Shown here one piece after another: positions 1 to 21,279 of a DNA stretch of 30,666 bases (its first letter is position 1; the number at the start of each line of letters is the position of its first letter). Source of the stretch: a virus. The position numbers and the translations under genes were made by a program. The notes beneath the pieces were generated by a model. The model searched no databases. It saw only the letters and a program-made list of their open reading frames with translations, and was not told the origin of the DNA. Where the stretch lies: IMG/VR virus record IMGVR_UViG_3300028315_000509, positions 1 through 30,666 of that record; one strand, given 5' to 3'.

Positions 1-1173
1 ATGAACCCAATTAAGGAACAAAAAACAATTTTTAATCAGGCGCAGGAGTCTATGCGCTCTGAGGAAGCGGCCAGCAGTAATGGCAAGGCTGAAACCGGCA
101 TCATGCTGGGCCTGGCGCTATCTTCGCTCTTTACCATCATTTACATGATCGTGGCGTTGGGCGGCAGCCTGGTGGGTCTGGGTTGGGCCTCGCTGGTGGC
201 CTACATTATCGGCGGGCTGCTGGGCCTGGCGGCAATTATGCCGGGCGAGGCTGCCGTGTGGATTTGGAAAACGAAGCTACAAAGCGATTATGAAATTAAT
301 GGTACACAGGTGACCGTGGCCTGGATTTCTGGCCTGGCTGCGGCCGTTTCTGCGGCTGTGAGTACCGTTTCTTTCTTCGCCTACCTACTCCAGGGCCTCA
401 TGCCCGGCTGGTATAACCCAGACACGGCGGCGGGTGTGAATGTGGCCAATATTGCAGTTGGCTGGGCTATCTTCGGCCTGGCCGTTTTTGTCTACTACGC
501 CGCCGGTGATAGCAGCAAGCGCAACCGGAACCGGGCAAAGGCGCTGCATGTGGCTCGCACGGCCCAAGACCAGATGATCGCGGGCATTGCCCAGGGCACG
601 AAGGACAAAATCGAGGAGCTGATCCAGGGCATGGGTGAGAACAATATCTTTGTGGATGATGCGTTGGAGCAAGTGGCGCGGGCGATGGGGCTGAATGATG
701 AGCGGACGAAGCAGGTACGCGACCTGGCGAAGCCGCAGCAGCAGTCTCGTGGCGATAGCTGGACCGTGGCGTTTCTCAATGCCAGGGGTGAGCCGTGGTG
801 GTTTAACGTTGCTGGTGATTTCGATACCGCAGTTCTTGAGGCAAAACGGACGCAGAAAAAGGATCTGTTTTCTGATGTGGTAGTTAAGGATAGGAACGGC
901 ACCATTGTTTGGCCTAGTCATAAAGATGGTTCTTTTGGCAACTGGTACCTGTTCAGAAGCGACAAGGTAGTAAAGGGGCCGATGTCGGAATCGGAGGCCA
1001 AGCACCAGGCTGAGGAGATGAATGAGGAGAAGGGTTCTACCAGTTATCACGCCAGGTTTGGTTTGGGGCGTCTATATGATAAAGAGCGGCATCTATTTGA
1101 GGAGGGGCCGCAACCCGCCCGCCCTACGTCAGCGCCGGTAAGCTCCAACGGGAGAGATTACCATCGCGGGTAA
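1..1173 (+). CDS. Four-helix membrane protein, unknown function
   Basis: I do not recognise this family. The 390-residue product has four hydrophobic segments at about residues 33-55, 60-82, 104-132 and 147-169, so it probably sits in the cytoplasmic membrane. A soluble C-terminal half of about 220 residues follows, beginning with a basic stretch (SSKRNRNRAK, about 171-180). The tail around residues 250-330 is rich in Trp and aromatic residues (WTVAFLNARGEPWW, then WYLFRSDK) and may be a small beta domain. The ATG is the first base of the window, so its ribosome-binding site cannot be seen and the true start could lie upstream. The reading frame and codon use look coding throughout. It contains no copy of the ACGGCCGT palindrome, unlike the next 3 kb. 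It could be a phage accessory membrane protein or a flanking host gene. Confidence 0.6.
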   Translation: MNPIKEQKTIFNQAQESMRSEEAASSNGKAETGIMLGLALSSLFTIIYMIVALGGSLVGLGWASLVAYIIGGLLGLAAIMPGEAAVWIWKTKLQSDYEINGTQVTVAWISGLAAAVSAAVSTVSFFAYLLQGLMPGWYNPDTAAGVNVANIAVGWAIFGLAVFVYYAAGDSSKRNRNRAKALHVARTAQDQMIAGIAQGTKDKIEELIQGMGENNIFVDDALEQVARAMGLNDERTKQVRDLAKPQQQSRGDSWTVAFLNARGEPWWFNVAGDFDTAVLEAKRTQKKDLFSDVVVKDRNGTIVWPSHKDGSFGNWYLFRSDKVVKGPMSESEAKHQAEEMNEEKGSTSYHARFGLGRLYDKERHLFEEGPQPARPTSAPVSSNGRDYHRG

Positions 1174-1220
1174 ATAACGCAGCGCGTCAAGGTGGCAATG
1201 ATAGAACGGCCGTTCCAGTT

Positions 1221-1688
1221 ATGGAATTGGTGAATGATGGGGAAACGGCCGTTTCTATGGGCGCAGGTGGCAAGGGTTACGTTAAGCCCACTATCACCCA
1301 GAGACCTCCCAAAACCGTTGCCCCTCCCAAAAATAATGACGAGGTGGGAGGGGCAAAAATTGGGAGGGGCAAAAATTGGGAGGGGCAAGAAAAAACCAGA
1401 GGTCGCCCCTCCCAGAAACGGGAGAAAAAGCGAGCTTTGCCCCTCCCAAATGATAGACAACGTTCCCGGCGCTGGATAGAGTTTAAGCCAGGAAAAAAGC
1501 GTAAAGATGGCTCGCGGCTGTATTACCCAAAGTATCGCCGCTGGCTGCCAGGCAATGAAAAAAAAGAATGGCTTGGACCCGTTGCCGATTTAGATCCAAT
1601 GACGGAGGCTCAGAAAAATGATTATGTCAACGCAAGAAGAAAAGCAAAACAGCGCCGCAAACGCGAAAAGCGTCGAGGAAGTGATTGA
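1221..1688 (+). CDS. Basic Lys/Arg-rich protein, possible nucleic-acid binder
   Basis: The 155-residue product is extremely basic and ends in a Lys/Arg run (RRKAKQRRKREKRRGSD). About residues 82-125 form the best-looking part, with the pattern RWIEFKPGKKRKDGSRLYY followed by R-W-L-P-G and EWLGP. That resembles the small Lys/Tyr/Trp-rich modules with a 'K..G..YYY..W' signature found in many bacterial and phage hypothetical proteins, so a DNA- or RNA-binding role is plausible but unproven. The first half is low complexity because the GGGAGGGGC repeat array (1346-1389 and flanks) lies within it. No Shine-Dalgarno is visible before the ATG at 1221, and the next in-frame ATG is at 1257, so the start is uncertain. 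The 3' end overlaps the next gene by 71 nt. Confidence 0.45.
   Translation: MELVNDGETAVSMGAGGKGYVKPTITQRPPKTVAPPKNNDEVGGAKIGRGKNWEGQEKTRGRPSQKREKKRALPLPNDRQRSRRWIEFKPGKKRKDGSRLYYPKYRRWLPGNEKKEWLGPVADLDPMTEAQKNDYVNARRKAKQRRKREKRRGSD
1304..1450. repeat. GGGAGGGGC iteron-like array with inverted copies
   Basis: Three tandem copies of a 16-bp unit, GGGAGGGGCAAAAATT, start at 1346, 1362 and 1378; the third diverges after GGGAGGGGCAA. Three inverted copies of the core flank them: TTGCCCCTCCCAA (about 1318-1330), GCCCCTCCC (1405-1413) and TTTGCCCCTCCCAAA (1436-1450). A weaker CCTCCCAAAA lies near 1305. Six strong cores in about 135 bp, in both orientations and inside a low-complexity part of an ORF, look like a protein-binding or replication-iteron array rather than protein-level repetition. 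The purine strand is G-rich, with runs of four Gs. Confidence 0.75.
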
Positions 1689-1881
1689 GTTTTTGCAGGC
1701 ATGTGGCCTGCCGCTGAAGTCTGTCACGGCGATTTGTGATGTGGTGGCTGGTGTCATCATGGGCGAGGTTGGCAGTGTCGATCATGAGCAAGAACTGGCC
1801 GCCGGTGTGTCTTATGTGGTGCTTGGGTTGGGCAAACTGCCTACTGAGTTGCCACGAGGGATTAACTTTATAGAGGATTGA
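1618..1881 (+). CDS. Small hypothetical protein
   Basis: The 87-residue product is unrecognised. It has a short polar N terminus (about residues 1-18), then an alpha-helical body containing VEEVIEFLQACGLPLKSVTAI and a mildly hydrophobic segment around residues 40-72 that is too polar to call a membrane helix confidently. The ATG at 1618 has GGAGG at 1604-1608 with 9-nt spacing, which favours it over the ATG at 1624 (15-nt spacing). It overlaps the end of the upstream basic-protein gene, suggesting translational coupling. It is followed by a 67-nt gap that carries two copies of the AACGGCCGTT palindrome before the cold-shock gene. Confidence 0.6.
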   Translation: MIMSTQEEKQNSAANAKSVEEVIEFLQACGLPLKSVTAICDVVAGVIMGEVGSVDHEQELAAGVSYVVLGLGKLPTELPRGINFIED

Positions 1882-3441: not shown

Positions 3442-3465
3442 ATTCAAACAAAAGGAGATTTCGCT

Positions 3466-3759
3466 GTGTCACACAAGGATAATTTGAACTATTTACAGCT
3501 GCTGAAGAAGCAACTGGGCGATGACCCGGCGGCGGGGAAGGTTGCCACGATAATCAATGAATACGAGAGTGTAATTAACAGCCGGTTGGAGCATAAGTTT
3601 TTGGAGGTTGGTAAGAAGTATCAATTCAACCTGATCACCGAGCAATTTATTGAAGCGACGATTTTAGAGGTTGGCACGTATGCCATTGAGGTGCAAACGG
3701 AGTCGGGTGGTCTGCTGCTGTTCAAAGCGTCTATTGCTTTCGTCCGACCAACCGGTTAA
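3466..3759 (+). CDS. Sm/Hfq-like fold protein (inferred)
   Basis: The 97-residue product starts with GTG, supported by AAAGGAGA 7 nt upstream. Residues 1-45 look helical. Residues 50-95 give a strand pattern close to the Hfq Sm core: Y-x-F-N-L-I-T, then FIEATILEVGTYAIEV (Sm1-like), then LLLFKASIAFVRP, which lines up with the YKHAIS-x-VVP Sm2 motif of Hfq. The order is non-standard because Hfq normally carries only a short N-terminal helix. Family assignment by eye is tentative. If correct, it would bind RNA, in keeping with the nearby cold-shock protein. A small beta-barrel with another role is the main alternative. Confidence 0.6.
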   Translation: MSHKDNLNYLQLLKKQLGDDPAAGKVATIINEYESVINSRLEHKFLEVGKKYQFNLITEQFIEATILEVGTYAIEVQTESGGLLLFKASIAFVRPTG

Positions 3760-3806: not shown

Positions 3807-4214
3807 ATGTTCACGAACGGCCGTTCTACCAGCGCCCCCGGCGCATTCATTCGGACCAGCGACAAGAGACGCCAGAATGTCTGGCTGCACGTCTTTGGCA
3901 CTGATACGCTGCCGGTGCTGGCCAGCAAACCACGCTGGCAGGCGATTCAGGGCAAGACCTTCGACATGTTGGCCTATGACCTGGCGATGGGTGAGCTGAC
4001 ACCTGCTCAGCGTGCGCGGTTTGCCGGGTATCTGTCGCGTAAGTATCGGATGGAGTATGCAGCGATATTGGCGGAGTTGGAAACGGCCGTTTCCTGGCCG
4101 ATCAAGTCGACGTTTGATGTGAAAGTTGTCGAGCCAGCGGAGGAAACAAGTCCGCTGGCTTCTTTGTTGCGGCGGATTGGGAGGAAACGGCCGTTGCTGA
4201 GGTTGGCGACATGA
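3807..4214 (+). CDS. Hypothetical protein, 135 aa
   Basis: I do not recognise this protein. It begins MFTNGRSTSAPGAF, where NGR is read from a palindrome copy at 3817. It then shows a beta-rich part (NVWLHVFGTDTLPVL), a helix with MGELTPAQRARFAGYLSRKYRMEYA, and a variable C terminus that contains two more palindrome-derived patches (ETAVS and KRPLL). The LTPAQRARFAGYL pattern resembles a small helical module seen in other phage hypothetical proteins. The start has no ribosome-binding site but a -10-like box at the right distance for leaderless translation. It overlaps the next gene by 4 nt. Confidence 0.58.
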   Translation: MFTNGRSTSAPGAFIRTSDKRRQNVWLHVFGTDTLPVLASKPRWQAIQGKTFDMLAYDLAMGELTPAQRARFAGYLSRKYRMEYAAILAELETAVSWPIKSTFDVKVVEPAEETSPLASLLRRIGRKRPLLRLAT

Positions 4215-5297: not shown

Positions 5298-6756
5298 GCG
5301 CTGCGCCTTCCTGGTAGACAACCTGGACTTGCCAGAAGCGGCCCAATTCGAGGGCGCACGCTGGGAACATTTCCAGTTAGCACATTTACAAGACGACGCT
5401 ACATTCCGCACCGAAGTCAAAAGTCGTCAAATAGCATGGTCTTTTTTAAGCGCAGCTGAAGCCGTAGCCGATGGCATCTTGACCGGAGCGAGTAGCGTCT
5501 TTGTTTCCATCAACCTCGACGAAGCCAAAGAGAAAATACGCTACGCCCACAATGTGCGCCACGCCCTGCCCCGCTCGATGCGCCCCAAACTCATCACCGA
5601 TAATAAGCAGGAAATCGAATTCGATAACGGTGCCCGGCTTATCTCCCTACCCTCGACGGCCCCGCGTGGTAAGGCCCAGATGAATGTCTACCTGGACGAA
5701 TTCGCCCACGTGCGCGATGACAAGGTGATTTACACCGCCGCCCTGCCCATGATGACCAAAGGCGACCGGAGGCTACGCATGGCCAGCAGCCCGATGGGTG
5801 GCAGCGGCCGTTTCTGGGAAGTCTACACTCAGTCATTACAGCCGTTTCCAGGCTACCGGCGCAAGGCGACGCCCTGGTGGGAAGTACAGGCGTTTTGTCG
5901 CAATGTGAAAGCAGCCAGGCGCATGGCCCCCAGCATGACCACCTTTGAACGGGTGGAGATGTTTGGCAATGACCGCATTAAGGCGCTGTACGCCAACATG
6001 CCGGAAGAGGATTTCCAGCAGGAATACGAATGCAAATTCGTAGATGAATCCACCGCCTGGATCACCTGGGACGAAATCAAAGCCAACCAGGCAGCGCACA
6101 GCGGCCCGGTCATTATGGCCGAAGCCAAAGACAGCGTCATCGACCGTGCGCTGGAAGCCATTGGCGAGCTGGCCGACCTGGTGGCCAAAAACGCGGTGGA
6201 ACTGGTCTTTGCGGCTGGCTACGACGTCGGCCGCACACGCAACACGTCCGAGCTGTACGTGGTGGGGGTCTCGACGCTAAAGAGTTACCCGGTCCGGCTG
6301 GCCATCAGCCTGGACAACTGCGATTTTGACAGCCAGGTTGCTGTTCTGACGGCAGCCCTGACCAAACTGCCGCTCATGGGTCTACTTATCGACCGCAACG
6401 GCATCGGCCGCAACCTGGCCGAGACAATGGAGCGGCTTTTCCCTGGTAAAGCGGCCGGGGTGGACTTTACCAACCAGAGCAAGGCGCTCTGGGCTACGGA
6501 TGGCAAAATGCTTTTCCAGCAGCGCCGGGCACCGATTCCGACCGACAAGGATCTGGCCTACCAGATTCACAGCATCAAGCGGAAAGTGACGGCCGCTAAG
6601 AACCTGGTCTTTGACACGGAACGCAACGAAAAACACCATGCTGATCGATTTTGGGCCTTAATGCTGGCTCATTCGGTGGCAATAATGATCGAGACACCGG
6701 CATTAGATGAGGGTGTCGTTATCGACGAGGAAGCCGTCACGATTTCACCATATTAG
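5278..6756 (+). CDS. terL: Terminase large subunit (ATPase and nuclease)
   Basis: The 492-residue product is the packaging motor and DNA-cutting enzyme. The ATPase part has a degenerate Walker A (KSRQIAWS, residues 48-55, without the usual GK-S/T), Walker B MNVYLDE (135-141, catalytic Glu 141) and a coupling motif MASSPMG (168-174). The RNase H-like nuclease half shows the expected acidic residues in AGYDVGR (D316), LIDRNGIG (D372) and HHADRFWALMLA (D456). Length and order fit the family. The ATG is inside the small-subunit gene, so translation is probably coupled. No perfect ACGGCCGT occurs in the gene, only imperfect forms near 5803 and 6592. It ends in ISPY. Confidence 0.95.
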   Translation: MWTPKTERCAFLVDNLDLPEAAQFEGARWEHFQLAHLQDDATFRTEVKSRQIAWSFLSAAEAVADGILTGASSVFVSINLDEAKEKIRYAHNVRHALPRSMRPKLITDNKQEIEFDNGARLISLPSTAPRGKAQMNVYLDEFAHVRDDKVIYTAALPMMTKGDRRLRMASSPMGGSGRFWEVYTQSLQPFPGYRRKATPWWEVQAFCRNVKAARRMAPSMTTFERVEMFGNDRIKALYANMPEEDFQQEYECKFVDESTAWITWDEIKANQAAHSGPVIMAEAKDSVIDRALEAIGELADLVAKNAVELVFAAGYDVGRTRNTSELYVVGVSTLKSYPVRLAISLDNCDFDSQVAVLTAALTKLPLMGLLIDRNGIGRNLAETMERLFPGKAAGVDFTNQSKALWATDGKMLFQQRRAPIPTDKDLAYQIHSIKRKVTAAKNLVFDTERNEKHHADRFWALMLAHSVAIMIETPALDEGVVIDEEAVTISPY

Positions 6757-19935: not shown

Positions 19936-21279
19936 ATGACAACACAACTTTACTTTTCCGGCGTCAACGCCATGACCACAGATGGGGTCCTGAACTTGAA
20001 CGGGGCCAATATTGAACTGCTGCCTGGCTGGCGACCGCGTGTAGCCAAACGGCGGCGCGGTTTGCTGGGGGGGCAGCTGTATGAGGATGTGGTGGAATCC
20101 ATTCCGCTCCGGGTTTACGGGGCCAGCCCGGCCGACTGCGTACAGTTTTTGGAGCTGATGGTGGCGGCGATGGACCAGGCGCGGACATGGAAAGACGGCG
20201 CGGCCGTTGGCGCTGTTAACTTGAATTATGCGATTAACGGCACGGCGCTGAGTAACCCACTGCGAGCGGCCGTTTTGGGCACACCTGCGGACGCAGCAGA
20301 TATTTTGAGCTTGCCGGTGACATTCAACCAAAACTTGCAGGTATTCGAGGTGAACCCCGTGACGCTCCCTCTAGAGCGGCGGGGGCAATGGCTGGGAGAC
20401 GAGGAGACGGTGAGCCGGGCCACATCGACGAGCTACAGCCCTGGTGTAATTACCCCCAGCTCGAACTTCACTGACACCCTGGTGCTACCAAGCCCCTACA
20501 AATTAACCATCAACTACGACGATTTAGCCGGGTCGCCTGCCGATACAAACATAATGCTATTGACTGCGAGGTCAAGCGGTAGATTGTTGTTAATTGAAGG
20601 CGAGGACGAAACGGGCGGCGAGCCAAACTTTGCGTCCGCAACTGATTCAGATGCCAGCGGCGGCGACGTGGGGAGGTATACGCCAAACGATACAGACGAT
20701 AATAGGCTGTTTTGGTCAACATCTCTTGACAGTGATGTTCGTGCTGTGTTTGTGATTTTCCACCTAAAAAACAGATCCTCGACGATTTCCTATGATCTGA
20801 AAGCAAAGGCAAGGGGGCGTTTTAGTCCAGTCCAGCAAATCGGCACCGACGATAATGACCCGCAGCTAATCGCGTTTGGGCCGCTTATATCTCCATACGG
20901 AGCAATCACGCAAATAGAATTGAGTATTACCGCGTCGGGCACAGGCAGCGCGTCCGAGTCGCTAGATATAGATACGATTGGCGTGGTGGCAGTTGAGGGA
21001 ACCAGCAACGTGCTGGCAGCCTTTGAGGTAGGAAATGCAACCTCCGATCCCGTCATCAATCATGAGTTGCTTACCCTGCCCCGACCCACCGTGACAAGTA
21101 ACGAGTCCTCCGGGCTGTCTTACAGGGGCATAGCTTATCTGTGGAATACGGGCAACACGGCCGCAGCCCTGGTGATGGGCGGATCAGGAACAAGTTGGCT
21201 GCTACGTAATGATGTGAGCGATCAATTAGAGGTCGGGGCGTCGTGGGTTCGACGCCCTGCCTACCTGGTGCCGAGGTAA
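19936..21279 (+). CDS. Distal tail (Dit)-like protein with inserted beta domain
   Basis: The 447-residue product follows the tape measure directly, the normal place of the distal tail hub. The N-terminal about 165 residues (YFSGVNAMTTDGVLNLN through RVAKRRRGLLGGQLYEDVVESIPLRVYG and LPVTFNQNLQVFEV) match the Dit core ring pattern. Residues about 170-355 form a beta-rich insertion (LPSPYKLTINYDDL, RLFWSTSLDSDVRAVFVIFHLKNRSS) that looks like a carbohydrate-binding sandwich and is richer in A+T than its surroundings. The end (AAALVMGGSGTSWLLRNDVSD) is beta again. Insertions with binding modules are known in evolved Dits and could adhere to the host surface. Confidence 0.75.
   Translation: MTTQLYFSGVNAMTTDGVLNLNGANIELLPGWRPRVAKRRRGLLGGQLYEDVVESIPLRVYGASPADCVQFLELMVAAMDQARTWKDGAAVGAVNLNYAINGTALSNPLRAAVLGTPADAADILSLPVTFNQNLQVFEVNPVTLPLERRGQWLGDEETVSRATSTSYSPGVITPSSNFTDTLVLPSPYKLTINYDDLAGSPADTNIMLLTARSSGRLLLIEGEDETGGEPNFASATDSDASGGDVGRYTPNDTDDNRLFWSTSLDSDVRAVFVIFHLKNRSSTISYDLKAKARGRFSPVQQIGTDDNDPQLIAFGPLISPYGAITQIELSITASGTGSASESLDIDTIGVVAVEGTSNVLAAFEVGNATSDPVINHELLTLPRPTVTSNESSGLSYRGIAYLWNTGNTAAALVMGGSGTSWLLRNDVSDQLEVGASWVRRPAYLVPR

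Follow-up and report, generated by a model that had tools for sequence, protein, structure and literature searches.

A repeat array within a phage gene as a putative site cluster for the product of the same gene in Anaerolineae phages and prophage-like loci

The window analyzed here, a stretch of 30,666 bp from an IMG/VR record with terminase, capsid and other tailed-phage genes, contains a small gene (ORF1) whose coding region carries an array of direct and inverted copies of a short unit. We consider it likely, on the comparison of eight loci, that this array is a DNA site cluster for the product of the gene containing it. The comparison gives good support for a real, self-contained specificity module in phages and prophage-like loci of Anaerolineae.

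Six exact copies of the core GGGAGGGGC were found within 128 bp (1320-, 1346+, 1362+, 1378+, 1405-, 1439-), following one another in the orientations - + + + - -, whereas only 0.50 copies would be expected in the whole 30.7 kb window. None of 100 dinucleotide shuffles contained six cores, and in 300 same-length Markov contigs no 9-mer exceeded four occurrences within 150 bp, compared to six in the window, so that chance is excluded. The three tandem cores follow each other at exactly 16 bp (TRF repeat 1345-1388, 100% match), with one inverted core to their left and two to their right, which bears out the geometry described in an earlier sequence-only reading. The unit common to the array copies is longer than the core, about TTGGGAGGGGCAA. 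On the plus strand, the direct units 2, 3 and 4 occupy 1345..1357 (tandem copy 1/3), 1361..1373 (16 bp past unit 2) and 1377..1389 (16 bp past unit 3), each identified by repeat, TRF and core match. The inverted units, on the minus strand, are unit 1 at 1318..1330 (TTGGGAGGGGCAA), unit 5 at 1404..1416 (CTGGGAGGGGCGA, with weaker flanks) and unit 6 at 1437..1449 (repeat and core match); a partial inverted unit of the same repeat family with an inexact core lies at 1305..1312 (minus strand; CCTCCCAA on the plus strand). There is no copy of GGGAGGGGC outside ORF1 in the 30,666 bp window, and the random spread of the core over the genome, named beforehand as speaking against a functional array, did not occur.

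Homologues of ORF1 were found in the same slot of seven relatives, namely three IMG/VR phages and four Anaerolineae genomes; together with the window these make eight members, which is a lower bound. At these loci a membrane-like protein is followed by ORF1 with its array and by an overlapping small ORF2, and in all eight ORF1 genes the array precedes a basic C-terminal domain. Searching related genomes for an array near the same gene had been proposed as a check, and it turned up an array in 8/8 homologous slots; the opposite case, a conserved protein with no repeat, was not encountered. Among the phages, G001 (IMGVR_UViG_3300037470_000663) has TAGGAGGGGCAA in three direct copies, spaced by 22, and in two inverted ones, G002 (IMGVR_UViG_3300037518_000469) has the unit CTACCGCAAAA, and G003 (IMGVR_UViG_3300037515_000543), whose terminase large subunit is 92% identical, has CTAGTGGCAAA. 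The locus G010, found by a search with the conserved leader, has the unit TTCAGTCGGAAA, and G095, found with the class-C domain profile, carries the palindrome TTGCCACTAGTGGCAA three times in full and once as a half site. The ORF2 profile led to G009 (unit TTCAGTCGTTT) and G019 (four direct units, GTACCGCAAAA). The contigs that led to G009, G010 and G019 carry the MAG titles Ardenticatenaceae CFX1, Anaerolineae SJ142 and Chloroflexota USCA_metabat.78, and G095 is of the same order. Based on neighbours such as an O-like gene and a DNA methyltransferase, we infer that the loci in the four Anaerolineae genomes are prophages. An integrase is present in G001. Apart from chance matches, no unit is found away from the ORF1 slot to which it belongs and the ORF2 that overlaps it; the latter contains most of the copies that lie outside ORF1 in G002, G003 and G009. 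A dispersed genome-wide repeat was ruled out, as the units occur only in the ORF1 slot. In G002, a stretch of ~45 bp with a unit copy is present twice, once in ORF1 and once in ORF2 (L025:about 5976-6018, 6452-6497).

The units fall into four classes: A, T[G/A]GGAGGGGCAA; B, TACCGCAAA; C, CTAGTGGCA; and D, TTCAGTCG. The C-terminal domains of ORF1 form the pairs window-G001 (class A, 69% identity), G002-G019 (B, 42%), G003-G095 (C, 56%) and G010-G009 (D, 73%), and the similarity of ORF2 yields the identical four pairs. The same pairing is also the best of the 105 perfect matchings based on 8-mers shared between the array regions, although each class has two members and the sample is therefore small. 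The two members of a pair have the same unit core or cores that differ at one base, although their C-terminal coding DNA is only 62-75% identical, and the arrangement, frame and count of the units differ; in class D only the half TTCAGTCG is shared, followed by GGAAA in one member and TTT in the other. Unit and C-terminal domain covary as expected of a reader and its sites, and each gene seems to include the sites at which its product would dock. The covariation of ORF2 is just as good, and ORF2 may itself be the reader or a co-reader. Weak domain matches between classes B and C (G019-G095, E 3e-6; G003-G019, E 1e-3) point to one superfamily; a profile comparison of class against class, with so few sequences, gave no match.

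In the window, ORF1 (1221..1688, plus strand) encodes 155 aa; its start is tentative, the frame being open from 1170. It consists of a short N-terminal part, a linker encoded by the array, which is probably disordered, and the basic C-terminal domain (1467..1685, plus strand), the putative site reader, whose class pairs with that of the unit. The nearest homologue, in G001, keeps the N- and C-terminal parts. Over 60 C-terminal codons, the two genes show a dN/dS of ~0.12 (dN 0.20, dS 1.75) and 13/10/27 differences at the three codon positions, and judged by this comparison ORF1 is truly coding. The open reading frame across the array is as the sequence-only reading had described it, including the very basic C-terminal part (pI 11.0). 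For the class-A domain, AlphaFold2 (AF2) predicted, from an alignment of two rows, a beta-beta-beta-alpha layout with a pLDDT of 86, and the class-C prediction resembles it (pLDDT 86); such a layout is found in several DNA-binding folds. Foldseek returned nothing significant for the predicted domains (best E 1.1 for class A and 0.12, to Pur-alpha, for class C), and the resemblance to arm-type or AP2-like DNA-binding domains is one of topology, with no significant fold or sequence match. No known family for ORF1 was found in Pfam, PHROGs or PDB sequences, and phage GenBank records contained no relatives of ORF1 or of the upstream membrane protein; by the libraries searched, the ORF1 family is undescribed. 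The class-A domain and the membrane protein of the window had no match in sampled Anaerolineae genomes either, in a search run without a positive control. All eight ORF1 proteins have a basic C-terminal domain and all eight ORF2 products are acidic to neutral, and we take ORF1, rather than ORF2, as the putative reader.

The acidic ORF2 of the window (85 aa; 1624..1881, plus strand, alternative start 1618) shares 65 nt with the end of ORF1, and its class covaries with the unit. Upstream, the membrane-like protein (1..1173, plus strand), at whose ATG the contig begins, shows hydrophobic stretches in its sequence; such a protein, recognized by stretches of this kind, precedes ORF1 in 8/8 loci and is of several unrelated sequences. 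Over its N-terminal 244 aa, the protein of the window shows 92% identity in G001 and G002. Despite this, the C-terminal tail (window 733-1173; L026:3600-3872) differs sharply among relatives, and the tails of G003 and G010 have a small module in common (YYVQ.ED..EESGWHTVN.RPF.TLDQAD), so the tail seems to be exchanged too. A leader (1174..1256, plus strand), 84-86% shared with L025, L026 and G010, contains two AACGGCCGTT palindromes. ORF2 is followed in the window by a gene for a cold-shock-domain protein (1949-2173, PF00313), with a similar one in G010 (L123:7679-8014). This gene occupies the place of an RNA and a T5orf172-type gene in the others. Downstream of ORF2 in G001, G002 and G003, and not in the window, we observed a conserved promoter-like TGGTATAAT/TATACT (L006:5428-5612, L025:6583-6766, L026:4518-4664), after which an RNA with strong, pseudoknot-like folding (z -3.6 to -6.3) lies ahead of the T5orf172-type gene.

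The palindrome AACGGCCGTT occurs 30 times in the window against 0.06 expected (e.g. at 1205, 1244, 1887 and 1924), often inside genes as ETAV(S), and GAAACGGCCGTTTC reaches up to 276 copies per genome in many Anaerolineae MAGs. Because AACGGCCGTT is also highly iterated in many genomes of Anaerolineae (Chloroflexota), the host probably belongs to that class. The palindrome recalls the cyanobacterial HIP1; Chloroflexi are absent from the HIP account in PMC4390886.

At which level the array acts was judged from its frames, folds and spacing. The six copies in the window are read in three frames and on both strands (VGGAK, GRGKN, WEGQE; APPKN, RPSQK, LPLPN), so the peptide is not what constrains them. 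By frames and spacing, an ordinary in-frame coding repeat was rejected for the window and G001. In G002, G003 and G095 most copies share one frame, so a peptide role may exist there. Other viral GGAGGGGCAA arrays were apparent in-frame coding repeats and unrelated (L014 being G001 again). Alternatively, opposite copies could form mRNA hairpins that control the mRNA or bind a protein, and the array mRNA does fold strongly in six of the eight loci (z -4.2 to -9.0). However, the fold is absent in G019 with its four direct units (z -0.7) and slight in G010 (z -2.5), the flanks of opposite copies lack the match of nested stems, direct tandem copies are in excess, and different hairpins would need no common sequence, yet they share one. 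As direct repeats are universal and hairpins are not, double-stranded DNA sites are favoured, and we regard an RNA-level element as improbable. It is even harder to credit that the array has no DNA function and arose by slippage and duplication in a tolerant linker. The linker is indeed of low complexity, and the near-perfect tandem copies at 16 bp and 22 bp indicate that recent duplication did occur, but this would leave unexplained why arrays occupy 8/8 slots, why most include inverted copies and why units are kept in distant relatives of the same class; the class covariation largely refutes it.

In the reading that we prefer, a DNA site cluster for the ORF1 product, the linker codons would double as sites and the basic C-terminal domain would be the part that reads them, as DNA. 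Unit and C-terminal domain would match each other in specificity as a cognate pair and would be passed on and swapped along with ORF2, which is probably a partner or modulator of ORF1 to which it is coupled. Several copies in both orientations would let several ORF1 molecules build one nucleoprotein complex at one place in the genome. Such a complex might mark the phage genome for a phage-specific step, most likely the control of replication or segregation in the manner of an origin or a centromere; its own operon would then be somewhat repressed as a side effect. An origin-, centromere- or tether-like locus would agree with the presence of one cluster in each genome, with units specific to their class and with a membrane-like protein encoded alongside.

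Two narrower functions were weighed against this. The sequence-only reading had proposed a DNA-level site array with the basic part of ORF1 as its binder and autoregulation as the consequence; the array and the probable, putative binder stood, whereas autoregulation is a less supported possibility, the sites lying 100-230 bp inside the gene and not at a promoter. Repression of the operon purely by roadblock binding within it is consistent with genomic sites found only in the own operon, including the stray copies in ORF2; nevertheless, the sites are internal to the gene, several inverted copies exceed the need of a roadblock, no promoter-like site beyond chance was detected at the array, and we hold this account to be rather doubtful. 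A similarly unlikely option is a lambda O-type origin with ORF1 as the initiator and the array as its iterons. The lambda O and P genes overlap, as ORF1 and ORF2 do, and the array is near the replication module in G001. The lambda design is also alike in that ori lies inside the initiator gene and specificity covaries (PMC7466680). On the other hand, ORF1 is without similarity to initiators, with no PF04492 or PHROG O-like match for ORF1 of the window, G001, G002 or G003, and G001 carries, 3-5 kb upstream, DnaB next to a genuine O-like gene (PF04492), with weak O-like matches in a comparable place in G003 and G095. The O-like gene of G003 even has its own clear array of about seven copies of TTATTGGTACAA and variants. 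Small arrays of this kind were seen in O-like genes of the relatives at G003 rc contig 4021-4150, G002 rc 20244-20390, G001 3449-3498, G095 rc(L128) 1765-1848 and L123 2847-2943, and the O-like gene unit of G002, AAGTCGGAAAA, resembles the class-D ORF1 unit TTCAGTCGGAAA. Since the O-like genes are separate, some with internal repeats of their own, the main lytic origin probably lies elsewhere than in the ORF1 array. An origin visible by GC skew, as the earlier reading had suggested looking for, did not emerge, as there was no skew signal. The AT content around the arrays is 0.46-0.59 vs 0.43-0.44 overall, with no clear AT-rich tract.

A further observation links the module to nucleases. Adjoining ORF2 in G001 (L006:5611-6114) is a gene for a T5orf172/MUG113 protein (PF13455, PF10544), whose C-terminal part is 59% identical over 44 aa (E 1e-13) to the ORF1 domain of G003, which is of class C, and unlike G001's own class-A domain. 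The proteins encoded at this place in G002 and G003 are longer, of GIY type, and differ in their C-terminal part. In the phage ICP1, the T5orf172 nuclease Odn, which has a domain resembling RepA, cleaves the origins of rival satellites, and this may be what causes satellite origin and reader to be replaced (PMC8263062). We put forward, as a speculative extension with a low chance of being right, that array and reader turn over together as rival phages aim array-directed T5orf172 nucleases with the same reader domains at the module; this would amount to an Odn-like arms race among Anaerolineae phages, together with an undescribed reader family that has its sites in its own gene.

With a small domain and its short site encoded on one gene in each of four natural and seemingly distinct pairs, these loci would allow direct tests of how protein-DNA specificity evolves. 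Besides lambda O, they would be another example of a phage gene whose coding region contains the putative sites of its reader. They may also be the second example of a replicon-type module whose turnover is driven by nucleases, here in phages from a class of bacteria that has received little study.

Compared to known systems, the module combines features of several. Chromosomal parS sites form a cluster next to or inside the reader gene, and ORF1 is alike in having putative sites inside the gene of the putative reader; it differs in having a number of different units where parS is a single conserved site. Neither ParB nor ParA similarity was found in those ORF1 and ORF2 proteins that were compared with Pfam and PHROG, and a ParB-like gene in G010 lies elsewhere, outside the ORF1/ORF2 module. 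In lambda O, the ori iterons lie inside the O gene, and extra iterons add residues to the protein (PMC7466680). Like it, all eight ORF1 genes have an array of putative reader sites inside the gene of the putative reader and a small overlapping gene for a putative partner, whereas ORF1 is unrelated in sequence, much smaller and has its basic domain at the C end; as far as sequence comparison tells, this is a known design principle, lambda O/ori-like, in a protein unrelated to O. In the PLE, the RepA/ori iterons are semi-palindromes of about 30 bp in a noncoding region (PMC8263062), while the units of the phage loci, known from sequence alone, are 9-12 bp long and lie inside a gene. The phage loci nevertheless resemble the PLE/Odn system in that the site array varies, and is exchanged as one module, with its putative reader domain; moreover, a copy of that domain is found on a putative T5orf172 nuclease.
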